From: an uncultured Candidatus Pelagibacter sp.
GTDB taxonomy: Bacteria; Pseudomonadota; Alphaproteobacteria; Pelagibacterales; Pelagibacteraceae
Direction of reading: 5' to 3'
Length of the DNA: 38,269 bases
Assembly: GCA_905618805.1 (NCBI GenBank)
Contig: CAJQSZ010000051.1
Location: 1-38,269, forward strand
The notes beneath the pieces were generated by a model, which saw only the letters and a list, made by a program, of their open reading frames with translations, searched no databases and was not told the origin of the DNA. Below, piece after piece: positions 32,244-38,269 of this stretch. The first letter of the stretch is position 1, and every line of letters starts with the position of its first letter. The translations under genes were made by a program, and so were the position numbers.

Positions 32244-32921
32244 TTATTGCTGAAAACTATATTTTTTTTCTAAATACTTTATCGATTTGTGAATTAAAAA
32301 AGTCATAAATAAATAAATACCACCCGCCATAAGAAATACCTCAAGTGGCTTATACGTGGTTGAAACAATATGTTTGGCAACACCAGTTATATCCATTAAT
32401 GTTACTGTGCTTGCAAGAGATGTGCCCTTCATCATTAATATAATTTCATTACCATAAGCTGGTAAAGATTGTCTAATAGCAACGGGTATTTGAATTTTAT
32501 AAAATATAATCTTTTTTGATATTCCTAAACTTTTTCCCGCTTCAATAACTCCAGGTTTAATAGTTTGAAAAGCGGATCTTAAAATTTCTGATGTATAGGC
32601 GCCAGTATTTAGTGCAAATGCAATAATTGCACACCAATATGGTTCTTTAAAAATCACCCAAAAAAAAGTTGATCTAAAATATTCTATTTGCCCTAAACCA
32701 TAATAAATTATAAATATTTGAACTAATAATGGTGTGCCTCTAAAAACATATGAATATCCGTAAGCAAATTGATTAATCATAGGATTTTTATTTAATCTTA
32801 AAATTGCGAATATAAGACCAATGAATATTCCAAAAAATAAAGATAGTGATAACAGTTTTAAAGTTATAACTGCTGCACTCAATAATTTAGGTAAGCTTGA
32901 AGCCATTAAAACTATATCCAT
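32244..32921 (-). CDS. Amino-acid ABC transporter permease (HisM/ArtM type)
   Basis: A 225-residue inner-membrane permease with about five hydrophobic segments. The cytoplasmic EAA loop reads EAGKSLGISKKIIFYKIQIP and continues VAIRQSLPAYGNEII, typical of the polar amino-acid family (HisM/GlnP). It partners with the permease upstream (TAATG overlap) and the binding protein at 33659. No ATPase gene lies in this cluster, so a shared ATP-binding subunit must come from elsewhere. Confidence 0.9.
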   Translation of the reverse strand: MDIVLMASSLPKLLSAAVITLKLLSLSLFFGIFIGLIFAILRLNKNPMINQFAYGYSYVFRGTPLLVQIFIIYYGLGQIEYFRSTFFWVIFKEPYWCAIIAFALNTGAYTSEILRSAFQTIKPGVIEAGKSLGISKKIIFYKIQIPVAIRQSLPAYGNEIILMMKGTSLASTVTLMDITGVAKHIVSTTYKPLEVFLMAGGIYLFMTFLIHKSIKYLEKKYSFQQ

Positions 32922-33613
32922 TAAAAACCCCTGCTGTACTTGACTTCAAGTCTATTAATTAATTTCATACTTAAAAAAGTAAGCATCAAATATAAAACTG
33001 CAGCAAAAGAATAAAAAAATAAAGGGTCTCTTGTTGATCCAGCCGCAATATAGGATTGCCTCATAATCTCAACTAAACCAGTAACAGATATTAAAGATGT
33101 ATCTTTTAATGTTATTTGCCAAACATTACTTAAGTTTGGAATCGCCAGTCTTAACATTTGTGGCATAATCACTTTTAAAAAATAAATATATTTTTTAAGT
33201 CCTAAAACTTTACAAGCTTCAAATTGACCTTTGTCTATTGATTGAATTGCACCTCTGAAAACTTCTGTTGAATATGCTCCCGATATTATTCCAATAGCAA
33301 AAGAGCCTGTTATAAATGCATTAATCTCTATATATTCAAAATAACCAAAAATTGAAGCCACATACATTATTGCCCCACTTCCTCCAAAAAAGAATAGGTA
33401 AATCACAAGAAGTTCTGGAACACCTCTTATTACTGTTGTGTAAGAATTTGCTATAAAATTTAAAAATTTATTATTTGATAATTTTAATGGTGTAAAGATT
33501 ATTGAAAATATAAAACCAATCCACAACGCTGTGATTGAGACAGCAATTGTCATTAGAGTTGCATAAAGCAACTCATCTCCCCAGCCAGTTTTTCCAAAAG
33601 TTAAAAGATCCAT
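32921..33613 (-). CDS. Amino-acid ABC transporter permease (HisQ/ArtQ type)
   Basis: A 230-residue permease with about five hydrophobic segments. PELLVIYLFFFGG and the EAA loop EACKVLGLKKYIYFLKVIMP, then QMLRLAIPNLSNVWQITLKD and TSLISVTGLVEIMRQSYIAAG are HisQ/OccQ-like. Together with HisM it would form the heterodimeric channel for histidine, lysine, arginine, ornithine or a related cationic amino acid. The gene follows a strong stem-loop after the binding-protein gene. Confidence 0.9.
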   Translation of the reverse strand: MDLLTFGKTGWGDELLYATLMTIAVSITALWIGFIFSIIFTPLKLSNNKFLNFIANSYTTVIRGVPELLVIYLFFFGGSGAIMYVASIFGYFEYIEINAFITGSFAIGIISGAYSTEVFRGAIQSIDKGQFEACKVLGLKKYIYFLKVIMPQMLRLAIPNLSNVWQITLKDTSLISVTGLVEIMRQSYIAAGSTRDPLFFYSFAAVLYLMLTFLSMKLINRLEVKYSRGF

Positions 33614-33621
33614 ATCGAAAG

Positions 33622-33643
33622 GGCGACTAAATAAATAGTCGCC
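33622..33643 (-). terminator. Stem-loop between binding protein and permease genes
   Basis: A perfect 8-bp hairpin (GGCGACTA/TAGTCGCC, 6-nt loop), extended by A/T pairs, lies in the 45-nt gap after the binding-protein stop. On the minus strand only CTTT follows, so it may act as a partial terminator or mRNA-stability element that raises binding protein over permease output, as in many ABC operons. Confidence 0.5.
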
Positions 33644-33658
33644 TTTTCAAAATATTAA

Positions 33659-34519
33659 TTACATAGATGCGTCAAAGCCAAAATGCTTAATAGCAAGTCT
33701 GCTAATAACTCCATCTTTTTTTGCTTGATCAATAGCTTTGTTAAAAGCTTTTAAAAGTTCAGCGTCTCTTGCACCTAGTGTTCCACCTAATTGAGAAGCC
33801 TGTCTTAAGCCAACTCCAACACCATTACCAAAGGCACCACCTGAAAAAGTCGGTCCAACTATCACAACAGATTTTCCAGATTTTTCTGCATAATCAGTAA
33901 AAGCAACAGCTGCAGCCAATGCTACATCACATCTTCCAGATGTTAAGTCTAAATTAACTTCATCTTGAGTTTTGTAAGTTCTAACATTTACTTTACCCAC
34001 ATCACCAGATTCTAAAAAATTTTGGTGAATAGTTCCAGTTTGCGTACAAACAGTTTTTCCAGTCAAAGCCTTAGTAATAGTTTTTAAAGCTTTTTTAGCA
34101 TCACCATTTGGTTGTGAAAGACTAATACTTGCAGGAGTATTCATTCCTTCAAGACTTGATCCTTTCATAACTGCAAGTGAAGCAACTTCATCAGCATAAC
34201 CCTGTGAAAATGTTATAACTTTTTTTCTTTCATCGGTTATTGACATTCCAGCCATTATTGCATCAAACTTTCTCATTTGAAGAGCGGGTATCATCCCATC
34301 CCAATCTTGCTCAACAACTTCACACTGTCTTCCAATATATCTGCAAAGTGAATATGCTAACTCAACTTCAAATCCAATTAGTTTTCCTGAGGCATCTTTA
34401 GAGTTCCAGGGAGGGTAAGCACCCTCTGTTCCAATCCTAATCTTATCAGAAGCGTAAACATTTCCAACAATCAATAAAGAAGCTAAAACAGTTAATATTG
34501 TTTTTTTAAATATCTTCAT
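33659..34519 (-). CDS. Periplasmic amino-acid-binding protein (HisJ/ArgT/OccT type)
   Basis: A 286-residue solute-binding protein of family 3. Signal peptide MKIFKKTILTVLASLLIVGN ends near VYA (residue 23). The mature part starts DKIRIGTEGAYPPWN, followed by GFEVELAYSLCRYIGRQCEV and DWDGMIPALQMRKFDAIMAG, matching lysine/arginine/ornithine and octopine binding proteins. TQTGTIHQNFLE and TSGRCDVALAA form the second lobe. GGAGG precedes the ATG. Ligand is inferred as a basic amino acid; adjacency to polyamine genes favours ornithine or arginine but is not proof. Confidence 0.85.
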   Translation of the reverse strand: MKIFKKTILTVLASLLIVGNVYASDKIRIGTEGAYPPWNSKDASGKLIGFEVELAYSLCRYIGRQCEVVEQDWDGMIPALQMRKFDAIMAGMSITDERKKVITFSQGYADEVASLAVMKGSSLEGMNTPASISLSQPNGDAKKALKTITKALTGKTVCTQTGTIHQNFLESGDVGKVNVRTYKTQDEVNLDLTSGRCDVALAAAVAFTDYAEKSGKSVVIVGPTFSGGAFGNGVGVGLRQASQLGGTLGARDAELLKAFNKAIDQAKKDGVISRLAIKHFGFDASM

Positions 34520-34536
34520 TTTTCCTCCATAATTTT

Positions 34537-34553
34537 AGGGGAGAAATCCCCCT
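34537..34553 (-). terminator. GC-rich hairpin between speDE and the binding-protein gene
   Basis: AGGGGAGAAATCCCCCT on the plus strand (the minus strand reads AGGGGGATTTCTCCCCT) forms a 5-6 bp stem with a short loop. It is the only GC block in this 79-nt gap, between the end of speDE (34599) and the binding-protein ATG (34519). It is followed by AAAATT rather than a T-run, so it could be a weak terminator or a processing site. Confidence 0.4.
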
Positions 34554-34598
34554 TTGAGGATATTTATTTCACAAATTTGATAATTTAAAAAGAAAATT

Positions 34599-35639
34599 TT
34601 AATGGTTGATGGAGGACGAGAAGTTCCAAGAACAGTCAAAACTTGGGATATAAACCCTATCTAAAGTTGTGTTTCCAAAATTTTTATTAAAAACATCTAA
34701 CCATTTTTCAACTTGTTCTGGTTTTTTATCTTTGCTGCCCACTTGAGCTGTAATTACACCATTAGGTTTCAATATTCTAATTAATGAATCCATATTTTTA
34801 GCAGCAAGGTCTATACAGAATTGATCATCATTAAGATCGACAAAAATTTTATCATACTTATCATCCTCAACAGTTTTAATACTTTCAAAAGCATCTCCCC
34901 AAATACATTTAATTGAATTTTTTTCAGTTGACTTACCACCAATACTTCCTAAGTGTTTTTTGCAGATTTCAACAACTTCTTGGTCGAGTTCATACCAATC
35001 AATAAAATCAAATCCTTTTGAAATACATTCTCTCGCAACTCCACCATCTCCGCCACCAATAATTGCCACTGTACCCGTGTCTTTATTTAACTTTAATGCA
35101 GCATTAACAAAAGTTGAGCTATACAAAACTTCATCATTTGTCGCTACTTGAATTTCATTATCTATAAAGAGAGATTTACCAAATTGTTCTAAGTCTAATA
35201 TTTCAATATGTTGACCTACTTTAGATTTAAAATCCTCCAAAACTTCATTTACTACGTAGGATTTTTGTAAACCTGGTGTGCTATAAATATCATGGTACAA
35301 AGATTTACTATCTCTATTAAATTCTTTTTTAATAATTCGTTTATGTTTAAATTCTTTTTTAATGATATCTAAAGCTATGGAGGGGCTAATTTTTCCACAT
35401 GTAAAAAAATCAAAACTAATAATTCCTTTTTCCGGAAAGGTATGAAAGCTAATATGACTTTCGGCTAATAAAGCAAGTATGGTAAAACCTTGTGGTTCAA
35501 ACTTATATTTTGAAATTTCAAGGACCGTTACATCTGCAGCTTTTGCAATTTTATGTATTACACTTTCAAATAATGATGGATTATACTCTTGCGTAGTTCC
35601 AATAATATCTAAAGTTATATGCTCACCAACTTTAGTCAT
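34599..35639 (-). CDS. speDE: Fused S-adenosylmethionine decarboxylase-spermidine synthase
   Basis: A 346-residue two-domain protein. Residues 1 to about 120 are a bacterial class 1b SpeD. The self-cleavage/pyruvoyl Ser61, His66 and Cys81 lie in LAESHISFHTFPE and FFTCG, aligned with Ser63, His68 and Cys83 of Thermotoga SpeD. Residues about 125-346 are an aminopropyltransferase: GGGDGG at 195-200 binds decarboxylated SAM, and D268-LN-D271 match the catalytic DxxD of SpeE. One chain would make decarboxylated SAM and transfer its aminopropyl group to a diamine, releasing MTA. SpeD could instead act on ornithine or arginine in neofunctionalised relatives. Confidence 0.88.
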   Translation of the reverse strand: MTKVGEHITLDIIGTTQEYNPSLFESVIHKIAKAADVTVLEISKYKFEPQGFTILALLAESHISFHTFPEKGIISFDFFTCGKISPSIALDIIKKEFKHKRIIKKEFNRDSKSLYHDIYSTPGLQKSYVVNEVLEDFKSKVGQHIEILDLEQFGKSLFIDNEIQVATNDEVLYSSTFVNAALKLNKDTGTVAIIGGGDGGVARECISKGFDFIDWYELDQEVVEICKKHLGSIGGKSTEKNSIKCIWGDAFESIKTVEDDKYDKIFVDLNDDQFCIDLAAKNMDSLIRILKPNGVITAQVGSKDKKPEQVEKWLDVFNKNFGNTTLDRVYIPSFDCSWNFSSSINH

Positions 35640-35645
35640 AAAAAA

Positions 35646-36278
35646 TTACCCTCTTTTATAATTTTTTGCTTTACTTAAAACTTTAATCATTTCTTTTGAT
35701 GATAAAATTTTAGGCTTACCAATTTTTAGAGCTTTTATATACTGGTTCGAAAGATTTTCAACCTCTTCAGCTAATTCAAATGCTTTTGATAAATTTTCTG
35801 AGAATGCAATCTGTCCGTGATTAGCAATTAAACATGCTGCTCTATTTTTTAAAACTTTGAGAATATTTTTAGACAAATCTCTTGTTCCATATGTAGCATA
35901 TTTCGCACATTTTATATCGTTACCACCAGCCATTGCTATCATGTAATGAAATGCTGGTATTCCTTTTCCATGAGTGGAAATTGCCGTTGCATAATTTGAA
36001 TGTGCATGAACAATTGCTTTGGCATCTATTTTATTTAAATATATGTCCTGGTGAAACCTCCATTCAGAGGAGGGTATTCCTTTTTTTTTGTCAAATTCAC
36101 CCTTGAGAGAGACAAAAACTATATTTTTACTTTTTAATGTAGAATATTTAGCCCCAGATGGTGTTATTAAAAAGCCTTCTTTGTATCTTACGGATATATT
36201 ACCAGATCTAAGTGCTGAAAGTTTTTTAGTATTAAGCATTTTAGCGTATTTAACTACTTCGGTTCTTAAATTTTTCAT
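35646..36278 (-). CDS. Class II aldolase, likely Ald2-type (5-methylthioribulose-1-phosphate aldolase)
   Basis: A 210-residue class II aldolase/adducin-family enzyme. Metal and catalytic residues match L-fuculose-phosphate aldolase: Glu72 (SSEWRFHQDIY), His91 and His93 (VHAHSNYAT), His154 (NHGQIAF). The SSEW form, rather than SAEx of MtnB dehydratases, supports an aldolase. Its ATG 36278 overlaps the mtnA TGA by 1 nt (TGATG); GTG 36281 is an alternative. In this operon it would cleave 5-methylthioribulose 1-phosphate into dihydroxyacetone phosphate and a methylthio-aldehyde. An MtnB-like dehydratase role is the alternative. Confidence 0.75.
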   Translation of the reverse strand: MKNLRTEVVKYAKMLNTKKLSALRSGNISVRYKEGFLITPSGAKYSTLKSKNIVFVSLKGEFDKKKGIPSSEWRFHQDIYLNKIDAKAIVHAHSNYATAISTHGKGIPAFHYMIAMAGGNDIKCAKYATYGTRDLSKNILKVLKNRAACLIANHGQIAFSENLSKAFELAEEVENLSNQYIKALKIGKPKILSSKEMIKVLSKAKNYKRG

Positions 36279-37354
36279 CACTTAAACATCTTTTTTAACG
36301 CTTTATTTGAAGCTTCACAGATTCCTTTTTCCGTAATTAGTCCTGTTACATATTTTGCAGGCGTTACATCAAATGCCAAATTTAATGATTTGCTTTTTTT
36401 TGGATAAATTAATACTTTTTTAAGGTTATTGTTTTCATCCAATCCCTCTATATGAGATAACTCTTGAGGGTCTCTTTCTTCTATTGGAATATTGTTAAAA
36501 TTTTTAATATCCCAATCTATAGTTGAGCTGGGTAAAGCCACATAAAAAGGTACACCGTTATCATAAGCAGCTAATGCTTTTAAGTAAGTTCCTATTTTAT
36601 TACAAACATCACCAGTTGATAAGGTTCTATCCGTTCCGACAATACACATATCAACATCACCTCTTTGCATTAGTATTCCTCCCGTATTATCTGCAATAAT
36701 AGTATTTGGAATTTGCTCCTCATTTAACTCAAAAGAGGTTAAGTTTGCACCTTGATTTCTTGGTCTGGTTTCATCAACCCAAACATGAACTGGAATTCCT
36801 TTTTTATGAGCATGATATATGGGAGATGTAGCTGTTCCCCAATTAATAGTTGCTAACCAACCAGCATTACAATGAGTTAAGATATTTACAGTATTTTTTT
36901 TTTTATTATAAATTTCTTCAATTATTTTTAATCCATTTAAACCAATATTTTTACAAAACTTTTCATCCTCATCACAAATGTCTTTAGCTTCTTTTAACGC
37001 AACACTTAAATATTCATCTTTATTAATACTTGATAATTTTTTGATCATACGGTCCACAGCCCATTTTAAGTTAATTGCTGTAGGTCTTGATTGAATTAAA
37101 TCTTCCGAAATTTTTGTAATAAAATTAAGATCATTATTTTCTTTAACCGCTAAAACTATTCCATAAGCAGCAGTCCCTCCTATAAGTGGAGCACCTCTTA
37201 CTTCCATATTTTTGATAGCACTTATTGCCTCTTTTACAGTCTTCAGATTCTTAATTATAAATTGATGTGGAAGCTTAGTTTGGTCAATTATCTGCACATC
37301 TTTGCTTTGTGTATCAAACCAAATTGTTCGATATTCTTTTCCATTAATTTTCAT
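36278..37354 (-). CDS. mtnA: Methylthioribose-1-phosphate isomerase
   Basis: A 358-residue MtnA of the eIF2B-like fold, converting 5-methylthioribose 1-phosphate to 5-methylthioribulose 1-phosphate. The catalytic pair matches Cys162 (THCNAGWLA) and Asp242 (VGTDRTLSTGDVCNKIGT). RGAPLIGGTAAYG (53-65) and ETRPRNQGANLTSFEL line the site. It overlaps the mtnP stop by 4 nt (ATGA) and its own stop overlaps the aldolase start, so the three are one translation-coupled unit. Confidence 0.93.
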   Translation of the reverse strand: MKINGKEYRTIWFDTQSKDVQIIDQTKLPHQFIIKNLKTVKEAISAIKNMEVRGAPLIGGTAAYGIVLAVKENNDLNFITKISEDLIQSRPTAINLKWAVDRMIKKLSSINKDEYLSVALKEAKDICDEDEKFCKNIGLNGLKIIEEIYNKKKNTVNILTHCNAGWLATINWGTATSPIYHAHKKGIPVHVWVDETRPRNQGANLTSFELNEEQIPNTIIADNTGGILMQRGDVDMCIVGTDRTLSTGDVCNKIGTYLKALAAYDNGVPFYVALPSSTIDWDIKNFNNIPIEERDPQELSHIEGLDENNNLKKVLIYPKKSKSLNLAFDVTPAKYVTGLITEKGICEASNKALKKMFK

Positions 37355-38223
37355 TTACTTAATACTCTTCCAGCAATTGTTTTTAATTTATTAATTGTTT
37401 TTTGACTTCTTTTTTCAGGCGCTGTTATTATAGCCAAATCTAAACAATTAATTGTTGGATCTTTTGGGTCTATGTGGCTTTCAAAATTATCAACAATATT
37501 TTTAATCATTGCTTTTGCTTTTTCAGCATTTGCCAGTAAAACTTTAATTACCTGCTGCACATCAACACTTTCATGATCTGGATGCCAACAATCAAAATCT
37601 GTAACCATTGAAATAGATGCATATCTAATTTCTGCTTCTCTAGCTAATTTAGCTTCAGGCATGTTGGTCATTCCAATAACATCAGCATTCCATGATCTGT
37701 ATAGATTGGATTCTGCAAGTGTTGAAAATTGAGGTCCCTCCATAACTACATAAGTGCCCCTTTTTTGATACTCTATATTTTCTTTTTTAATTGCTTCCTC
37801 ACATGCATTCATTAGTCCATTTGATGTAGGGTGTGCCATTGAAACATGTGCAACAATTTCATCATCAAAGAATGTTTTGTTCCTAACAAAAGTTCTGTCT
37901 ATAAATTGATCCACAATAACAAACTTTCCAGGTGGTAAATCTTTTTTTAAAGAACCTACAGCTGAAATAGAAACAATATCTGTAACTCCTAATTGCTTTA
38001 GTGCATCAATATTCGCTCTAAAATTTATTTTTGAAGGAGATATAAAATGTCCCCTGCCATGTCTTGGTAAGAAGCAAATTTCTTTACTTTTATAACTTGT
38101 TTTTAAAATATCATCTGAAGGTTTTCCCCAGGGAGTGTCTAATTTGACTAGTTCTCTATCTTTAAACTCTTCCATGTCATAAAGGCCACTACCACCAATA
38201 ATTGCTAATTTATTATTTGCCAT
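37351..38223 (-). CDS. mtnP: S-methyl-5'-thioadenosine phosphorylase
   Basis: A 290-residue trimeric-type nucleoside phosphorylase. It starts MANNKLAIIGGSGLYDMEEF, with the phosphate-binding GGSGL, then RHGRGHFISPSKINFRAN and VSISAVGSL, and later MEGPQFSTLAES and the C-terminal VTDFDCWH block. It cleaves MTA with phosphate to adenine and 5-methylthioribose 1-phosphate. ATG 38223 is chosen over TTG 38256, which would add an unusual lead. It heads the operon with mtnA, the aldolase and speDE, so its substrate is made by SpeDE. Confidence 0.92.
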   Translation of the reverse strand: MANNKLAIIGGSGLYDMEEFKDRELVKLDTPWGKPSDDILKTSYKSKEICFLPRHGRGHFISPSKINFRANIDALKQLGVTDIVSISAVGSLKKDLPPGKFVIVDQFIDRTFVRNKTFFDDEIVAHVSMAHPTSNGLMNACEEAIKKENIEYQKRGTYVVMEGPQFSTLAESNLYRSWNADVIGMTNMPEAKLAREAEIRYASISMVTDFDCWHPDHESVDVQQVIKVLLANAEKAKAMIKNIVDNFESHIDPKDPTINCLDLAIITAPEKRSQKTINKLKTIAGRVLSK

Positions 38224-38269
38224 ATCATTAAAATTCTTTAAATATTTATATATCAATAGAAAAAAAAAT

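Follow-up and report, generated by a model that had tools for sequence, protein, structure and literature searches.

5'-Methylthioadenosine (MTA) is a toxic by-product of polyamine synthesis. In Rhodospirillum rubrum and Rhodopseudomonas palustris it is handled by the dihydroxyacetone phosphate (DHAP) shunt, which in both organisms relies on MtnP, and not on a nucleosidase plus kinase, together with MtnA and the class II aldolase Ald2 (PMC5893883). R. palustris is described as running the shunt in air, to methanethiol, and the same account leaves the aldehyde step to a putative alcohol dehydrogenase (PMC5893883). The E. coli shunt, encoded by mtnK-mtnA-ald2 in the tRNA-leuX island, likewise combines MtnA with a class II aldolase but differs in its use of Pfs and MtnK, and is reported to be no significant source of sulfur in that organism (PMC10986504).

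Polyamine synthesis in SAR11 bacteria involves a fusion of AdoMet decarboxylase and aminopropyltransferase, and the fusions of two Pelagibacter strains make spermidine, spermine and thermospermine; in its description of these enzymes, the published account is silent on neighbouring genes and on how MTA is disposed of (PMC11107197). Here we describe a locus, from a marine lineage with streamlined genomes, in which the three families of the R. rubrum and R. palustris shunt are found again and in which, unlike in those organisms, their genes continue into speDE. The 38,269 nucleotides analysed, hereafter the window, belong to a SAR11-like genome that is 64% complete.

Results

The preliminary description reported a single minus-strand run of mtnP, mtnA, a class II aldolase gene and a fused speD-speE with overlaps of 1-4 nt or a 6-nt gap, and the ORF coordinates confirm this four-gene run, all four ORFs being intact. 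The mtnP gene (38223..37351, 290 aa) matches the 5'-methylthioadenosine phosphorylase models NF006492 (444.5 bits, cut-off 437) and TIGR01694 (313.7 bits, cut-off 274.85) and overlaps by 4 nt with mtnA (37354..36278, 358 aa), which scores 407.7 bits against the 5-methylthioribose-1-phosphate isomerase model TIGR00512 (cut-off 279). The ald2-like class II aldolase gene (36281..35646; PF00596, 158 bits) encodes 211 aa from a GTG start, overlapping mtnA by 4 nt, or 210 aa from the ATG at 36278, overlapping it by 1 nt. After a gap of 6 nt follows speDE (35639..34599), in which family profiles place a class 1b AdoMet decarboxylase (residues ~1-115; TIGR03330, 95.6 bits, cut-off 75.65) N-terminal to an aminopropyltransferase (~116-346) that is above the Pfam cut-offs of PF01564 and PF17284 and below those of the NCBIfam equivalogs, an architecture identical to that of the published SAR11 fusion (PMC11107197). 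The cluster contains no recognisable gene for an ornithine or arginine decarboxylase, so the earlier term "self-contained" was an overstatement.

The gene order is not due to chance, as in named SAR11 loci, chosen for carrying this aldolase, the aldolase and speDE are adjacent in 79 of 80 and mtnA lies at most 50 nt away in 59 of 80; mtnA is missing from the examined stretch in eight of these loci, three of which have less than 2 kb of upstream sequence. A search across the class gave a similar picture, with mtnA or mtnP within ~1.5 kb of the aldolase in 27 of the best 29 loci, the window excluded and four of the 29 coming from its own family. In relatives, apt is encoded divergently to mtnP.

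In the aldolase tree Ald2 was represented by the E. coli enzyme. In it the window aldolase groups with mtn-linked alphaproteobacterial aldolases and FucA, apart from the MtnB references, which form a clade of their own (support 100/100), and also apart from E. coli Ald2, which is the sister of FucA (58% identical) and not of the SAR11 enzyme. Profile comparison with the PDB yielded 265 bits for FucA, 211 for 6btd and 39 for MtnB (4m6r), and the identity of the window aldolase is 45% to E. coli FucA and 38% to E. coli Ald2. A review notes a remarkable similarity between the E. coli S88 enzyme and Ald2 of R. rubrum (PMC6302742); together with the position of E. coli Ald2 beside FucA, this suggests that the closest relative of the SAR11 aldolase may be an enzyme other than R. 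rubrum Ald2. E. coli UlaF falls inside the aldolases in the tree on a branch so long (6.44) that its placement carries no meaning.

One genome thus encodes all three proteins that make up the MtnP variant of the DHAP shunt: MtnP, MtnA and a non-MtnB aldolase of class II. The idea that the aldolase route replaces MtnB, MtnC and MtnD holds for MtnB and MtnD: in a search of 61 genomes, only 18 of which combine a completeness of 90% or more with low contamination, none carried an MtnB above the curated cut-off (TIGR03328, 137 bits) and none the acireductone dioxygenase MtnD. The RuBisCO-like protein that marks the MTA-isoprenoid shunt (PF00016) was found in 0 of the 61, a further difference from R. 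rubrum and R. palustris.

Of 37 genomes of the genus, 31 carry speDE, and its immediate upstream neighbour is Ald2 in 25, a 677-aa aldolase-dehydrogenase fusion in four and an MTA/SAH-nucleosidase-like gene, standing in for the whole module, in two. No genome among the genus set carries Ald2 and the fusion together; of the 25 with Ald2, all but G001 and G005 yielded mtnA, and in these two the contig breaks off at that point. In the mtnA tree, three or more changes between the Ald2 and fusion labels fall inside the genus, and shuffle tests showed no clustering of the fusion label (values as low arose in 94 of 500 shuffles, and in 59 of 500 without G041), which fits repeated swapping but could also reflect noise in a tree built from one gene, many of whose forks are weak. 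We suggest that the position upstream of speDE is a slot for MTA disposal, predicted to be filled by Ald2, by the fusion or by an MTA nucleosidase.

The fusion joins a class II aldolase to a short-chain dehydrogenase, the domain plan of RhaEW, an L-rhamnulose-1-phosphate aldolase with an NAD-dependent L-lactaldehyde dehydrogenase (PMC3870299). The two types are ~30% identical, and the match of the fusion to the rhamnulose aldolase-dehydrogenase model TIGR02632 (RhaD_aldol-ADH), 441.5 bits, is below its cut-off of 567.75. Across Alphaproteobacteria, mtnA or mtnP lies within ~5 kb of the fusion in 41 of 64 loci, compared with 0 of 13 for RhaEW-type relatives, and many fusion loci have mtnP, mtnA, apt or speDE as neighbours. 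At the catalytic position all 69 fusion sequences aligned have Glu, whereas 11 of 13 RhaEW-type sequences have Asp. The fusion may carry out two steps of the shunt, the cleavage and the as yet unassigned conversion of the aldehyde, and is a concrete candidate for the step that the R. palustris work assigns to a putative alcohol dehydrogenase (PMC5893883). The chances appear even that it unites, in one polypeptide, a methylthioribulose-1-phosphate aldolase not described before and a methylthioacetaldehyde dehydrogenase, which, by analogy with RhaEW and lactaldehyde, would most likely perform an NAD-dependent oxidation to methylthioacetate, a fate of the sulfur that would differ from methylthioethanol.

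Discussion

We propose, with a probability of roughly 80%, that the four genes form a DHAP-shunt operon linked to polyamine synthesis, which would dispose of the MTA released by SpeDE. SpeDE would decarboxylate AdoMet and then transfer the aminopropyl group, freeing one MTA per transfer; its activity here is expected from that of the close Pelagibacter fusions (PMC11107197). The other three genes are predicted, from family and context, to degrade this MTA: MtnP would convert it to adenine and methylthioribose-1-phosphate, MtnA would isomerise the latter to methylthioribulose-1-phosphate, and the aldolase would cleave this into DHAP and 2-methylthioacetaldehyde, while adenine would pass to Apt. 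The coupling of by-product removal to polyamine synthesis, already suggested in the preliminary description, appears strengthened, since the slot upstream of speDE swaps predicted disposal genes (25, 4 and 2 genomes).

That the third enzyme is instead an MtnB dehydratase of classical methionine salvage has next to no probability, although the two share the class II superfamily and the aldolase gives a match of 60 bits to TIGR03328, well short of the cut-off. The residues E72, H91, H93 and H154 (numbered from the ATG), previously singled out as FucA-type, are indeed present, but they are common to 6 of 6 MtnB references and hence not diagnostic for Ald2 versus MtnB. In contrast, W73, Y112 and Y207 (same numbering) are shared with FucA and E. 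coli Ald2 and with none of the six MtnB references, whose few C-terminal residues lay outside the residue comparison and include no Tyr. The profile, the separate clade and W73, Y112 and the C-terminal Tyr led us to reject the dehydratase reading, and the lack of MtnB matches above cut-off and of MtnD among the 61 genomes also stands against it. It is very unlikely, too, that the substrate is fuculose-1-phosphate or ribulose-1-phosphate and the position in the operon incidental: the best NCBIfam models are of these kinds (fuculose-phosphate aldolase, 212 bits; haloarchaeal ribulose-1-phosphate aldolase, 171 bits; both below cut-off) and the identity to FucA is 45%, but mtnA or mtnP accompanies the aldolase in nearly all of the best 29 class-search loci, and within the genus it is exchanged, exclusively, with another mtnA-associated aldolase.

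The substrate of the operon as a whole may also be questioned. As the shunts of E. coli and R. rubrum accept 5'-deoxyadenosine as well as MTA (PMC10986504, PMC8102628), the operon might serve mainly 5'-deoxyadenosine from radical SAM enzymes, with DHAP and acetaldehyde as products and MTA as a secondary substrate. We regard this as unlikely, although it is the least improbable of the alternatives, given that the operon adjoins speDE, a source of MTA, and that in two genomes this slot holds an MTA/SAH-nucleosidase-like gene in place of the module. Use of both substrates is conceivable; this nucleosidase family acts on 5'-deoxyadenosine too (PMC10986504). A broad role of MTAP has been proposed in Prochlorococcus (PMC11698098), and with Apt divergent to mtnP in relatives it is conceivable that MtnP serves general deoxynucleoside salvage, the role of the operon in MTA removal being only partial. 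This has little probability, as MtnP scores above the MTA-phosphorylase cut-offs and deoxyadenosine salvage has no known place for mtnA or the aldolase.

SAR11 bacteria are among the most abundant cells in the ocean and need reduced sulfur from outside. If the DHAP-shunt reading is correct, the locus would tell the methylthio fate in each lineage, be it a reactive aldehyde, an aldehyde handled by the fused dehydrogenase or exported methylthioribose. Removal of MTA would, moreover, draw the spermidine synthase reaction forward, and such a pull would be relevant to the published suggestion that SpeE of SAR11 works in the reverse direction (PMC8437039).

Two candidate regulatory elements were rejected. 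No Rfam family is above threshold in the window, and the apt-mtnP gap of ~30 to 45 nt in most named relatives carrying apt leaves little space for an RNA switch. The gap before the ABC transporter genes folds into a hairpin in the window, but none was seen in the gaps of the 22 relatives inspected from a set of 49. For mtnP, an alternative TTG start is possible upstream at 38256, the contig ending at 38269. On the other side of the operon, and outside the proposed pathway, lie minus-strand genes for an amino-acid ABC transporter binding protein (33659..34519; PF00497 above and TIGR01096 below cut-off) and two amino-acid ABC transporter permeases (32244..33613; PF00528 and TIGR01726 above cut-off), and the binding-protein gene is found 3' of speDE in many relatives too.

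Operon structure and conservation in SAR11

The four-gene run that the preliminary description had proposed is present on the minus strand at 34599-38223, where mtnP, mtnA, a 211-aa class II aldolase and a fused speD-speE (speDE) follow one another with overlaps of 4 nt and 4 nt (1 nt at the aldolase junction with an ATG start) and then a 6-nt gap. Profile searches place MtnP, MtnA and the SpeD half above the curated thresholds of their families, and the SpeE half above those of Pfam but below those of the NCBIfam equivalogs. We confirm the operon, and its main interpretation is probably correct: MtnP, MtnA and the aldolase would pass the methylthioadenosine (MTA) released by SpeDE through the dihydroxyacetone phosphate (DHAP) shunt, giving adenine, DHAP and methylthioacetaldehyde. 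According to PMC11107197, Pelagibacter SpeD-SpeE fusions decarboxylate AdoMet, and their products are spermidine, spermine and thermospermine.

Relatives were taken as the best 80 of 592 stretches matching the aldolase, loci chosen, that is, for carrying it. All 80 belong to SAR11; their record titles read Pelagibacteraceae in nearly every case, Pelagibacterales in one and Candidatus Pelagibacter ubique in one. In 79 of these 80 loci speDE is the immediate neighbor of the aldolase gene, and mtnA lies at most 50 nt from the aldolase in 59, farther away in 13 and is absent from the stretch examined in 8. As no aldolase locus of the class search outside the family had speDE within ~1.5 kb, this link with speDE seems confined to SAR11. 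Where the stretch reaches that far, the SAR11 relatives, these 80 among them, usually carry apt (adenine phosphoribosyltransferase; one representative scored) divergently upstream of mtnP; the window contig ends short of its expected position.

The mtnP-mtnA and mtnA-aldolase junctions hold inserted genes in many SAR11 genomes: among the same best 80 of 592 (loci L191-L270) we found a secreted alpha/beta-hydrolase-like protein (a cluster of 10), a Tautomerase_3 protein (9), a small membrane protein (4), a GFA-domain protein (2) and others. The mtnP-mtnA junction looks like an insertion hot spot.

Identity of the aldolase

The rival reading, in which the aldolase is an MtnB dehydratase of the classical route, was examined by genome content, phylogeny and residues. 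Our set of 61 genomes comprises 37 of the genus, including the window's own (810 kb, 58 contigs, 64% complete), and 24 of the order, and 18 of the 61 reach 90% completeness or more with contamination of 5% or less. The scan for mtnB and mtnD that had been proposed found neither, with MtnB above cut-off in 0/61 and MtnD in 0/61, and RuBisCO or a RuBisCO-like protein was likewise found in none of the 61. Run against the PDB, a profile built from 25 mtn-linked aldolases gave 265 bits for FucA, 211 for 6btd ("fuculose phosphate aldolase", which we take to be B. thuringiensis DrdA) and 39 for an MtnB chain. The six MtnB references make up a single clade (100/100) of a 42-row tree, and the window aldolase lies outside it, in a 13-row set (95/92) of SAR11 aldolases and alphaproteobacterial ones next to mtn genes, which answers the phylogenetic check in favor of an aldolase. 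Residues E72, H91, H93 and H154, earlier quoted as FucA-type, are indeed present, but they occur in 6/6 MtnB references as well, so that they do not tell the two families apart. FucA and E. coli Ald2 share W73, Y112 and the C-terminal Y207 with the window aldolase, and 0/6 MtnB references have them, the 2 to 5 C-terminal MtnB residues outside the residue comparison including no Tyr; residues of this type are catalytic in FucA.

The E. coli Ald2 used here comes from the mtnK-mtnA cluster of ATCC 25922. In the same tree it is sister to E. coli FucA (100/99), with which it shares 58% identity, and the window aldolase shares 38% identity with this Ald2 and 45% with FucA. At its locus (L273:9782-12838) the E. 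coli shunt aldolase is annotated L-fuculose-phosphate aldolase. This kinship to FucA hints that the shunt activity may have more than one origin, on more than one aldolase branch. A review (PMC6302742) notes a remarkable similarity between the E. coli S88 enzyme and R. rubrum Ald2, so the latter may not be the closest relative of the SAR11 enzyme.

Three alternatives upstream of speDE

Protein searches of the 61 genomes matched mtnA in 28 genus genomes and in G041, of another family, the aldolase at >250 bits in 25 genus genomes and speDE at >600 bits in 31. Where the aldolase is missing, the neighborhoods hold a different protein of 677 aa, a fusion that joins a class II aldolase to a short-chain dehydrogenase, which scores 905 bits against NF006192 (cut-off 639) and has Pfam domains for both halves. 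It was found in G013, G023, G024, G027 and G041; none of these five carries an operon-type Ald2, and the fusion is absent from all 25 Ald2 genomes. Among the 29 mtnA genomes 23 have Ald2, five the fusion, none both and one neither (Fisher p 5e-5, kinship uncorrected). That one, G031, has its genes in the same order as G004, where Ald2 follows farther along, and the G031 contig stops before that point. Two Ald2 genomes without an mtnA match are both at contig edges, the contig of G001 ending inside the aldolase and that of G005 beginning within a G004-like order. Two speDE genomes, one of them G012 (a single contig of 1.34 Mb, rated 100% complete), have no mtnP, mtnA, operon-type Ald2 or fusion.

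The position directly upstream of speDE holds exactly one of three genes in each of the 31 loci: Ald2 in 25, on the same strand and 4 to 29 nt from the speDE start; the fusion in four, on the opposite strand and 86 to 91 nt away; and a nucleosidase-like gene, sought at the speDE loci only, in two, on the same strand and 56 and 82 nt away. In G041, mtnP, mtnA and the fusion all lie on one strand. The two nucleosidase-like genes (L341:8253-8780 and L342:9083-9616) stand between apt and speDE in the genomes that lack mtnP and mtnA, and encode MTA/SAH nucleosidase-family proteins of 175-177 aa, shorter than the 232 aa of the E. coli protein. The protein scores 96 bits, below the NCBIfam cut-off of 129, and its 30 PDB matches are all MTA/SAH or aminodeoxyfutalosine nucleosidases. 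Two catalytic residues of E. coli Mtn, E174 and D197, keep their positions in it, and E12 is unaligned. Methylthioribose would be the end product in this lineage.

The fusion across Alphaproteobacteria

In 385 alphaproteobacterial genomes an Ald2-type match (E up to 1e-20) was found in 115 and the fusion (identity at least 44%) in 69, five as fragments; 11 further genomes have the RhaEW-like type (rhamnulose-1-phosphate aldolase-lactaldehyde dehydrogenase) alone. Ald2-type and fusion co-occur in 5 genomes against 20.6 expected (p 8e-7, kinship uncorrected). mtnA or mtnP lies near 41/64 fusion loci (18/30 within ~1.5 kb, 23/34 within ~5 kb) and near 0/13 RhaEW-type loci. As the other 23/64 have no mtn gene within reach, the 12 of the ~1.5-kb set still lacking one on wider flanks, the fusion family may also serve other purposes. 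All 69 fusion rows (64 class loci, 5 SAR11) keep the catalytic Glu and three metal His, whereas 11/13 RhaEW-type rows have Asp at the catalytic position, in line with the Asp noted for RhaE in PMC3870299.

The Ald2 and fusion labels change at least four times on the mtnA tree with G041 and at least three times within the family without it, counts forced by well-supported branches; G024 (fusion) and G022 (Ald2), for instance, are sisters (100/98). In a quick tree the four fusions of the genus fall into one clade. Either swapping of a ready-made cassette or loss from an ancestor with both would explain these changes, and a single-gene tree fits both accounts.

In air, R. palustris converts MTA to methylthioethanol and methanethiol via MtnP, MtnA, Ald2 and a putative alcohol dehydrogenase (PMC5893883). 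Since RhaEW oxidizes its aldehyde with NAD and showed no activity with NADH (PMC3870299), the likelier guess by analogy is that the fusion would oxidize methylthioacetaldehyde to methylthioacetate.

In the literature searched, we found no account of the SAR11 operon or of an aldolase-dehydrogenase beside mtnA, although the distribution paper on the DHAP shunt (PMC7237333) might mention them. The shunt and the SpeDE fusion were each known separately; the joined operon, the three-way position and the candidate fused aldolase-dehydrogenase appear to be new.

Downstream flank

Directly downstream of speDE, in the window (32244-34519) and in many relatives, lies an amino-acid (arginine-like) ABC transporter, in the window a binding protein and two permeases with no ATPase gene seen beside them, which possibly serves precursor uptake. 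The intervening gap (34520-34598) contains a GGGGGATTTCTCCCC hairpin, seen in none of the relatives' gaps inspected. A TGTGAAATAAT-like stretch recurs in this gap in the window and in relatives, and may be a promoter element.
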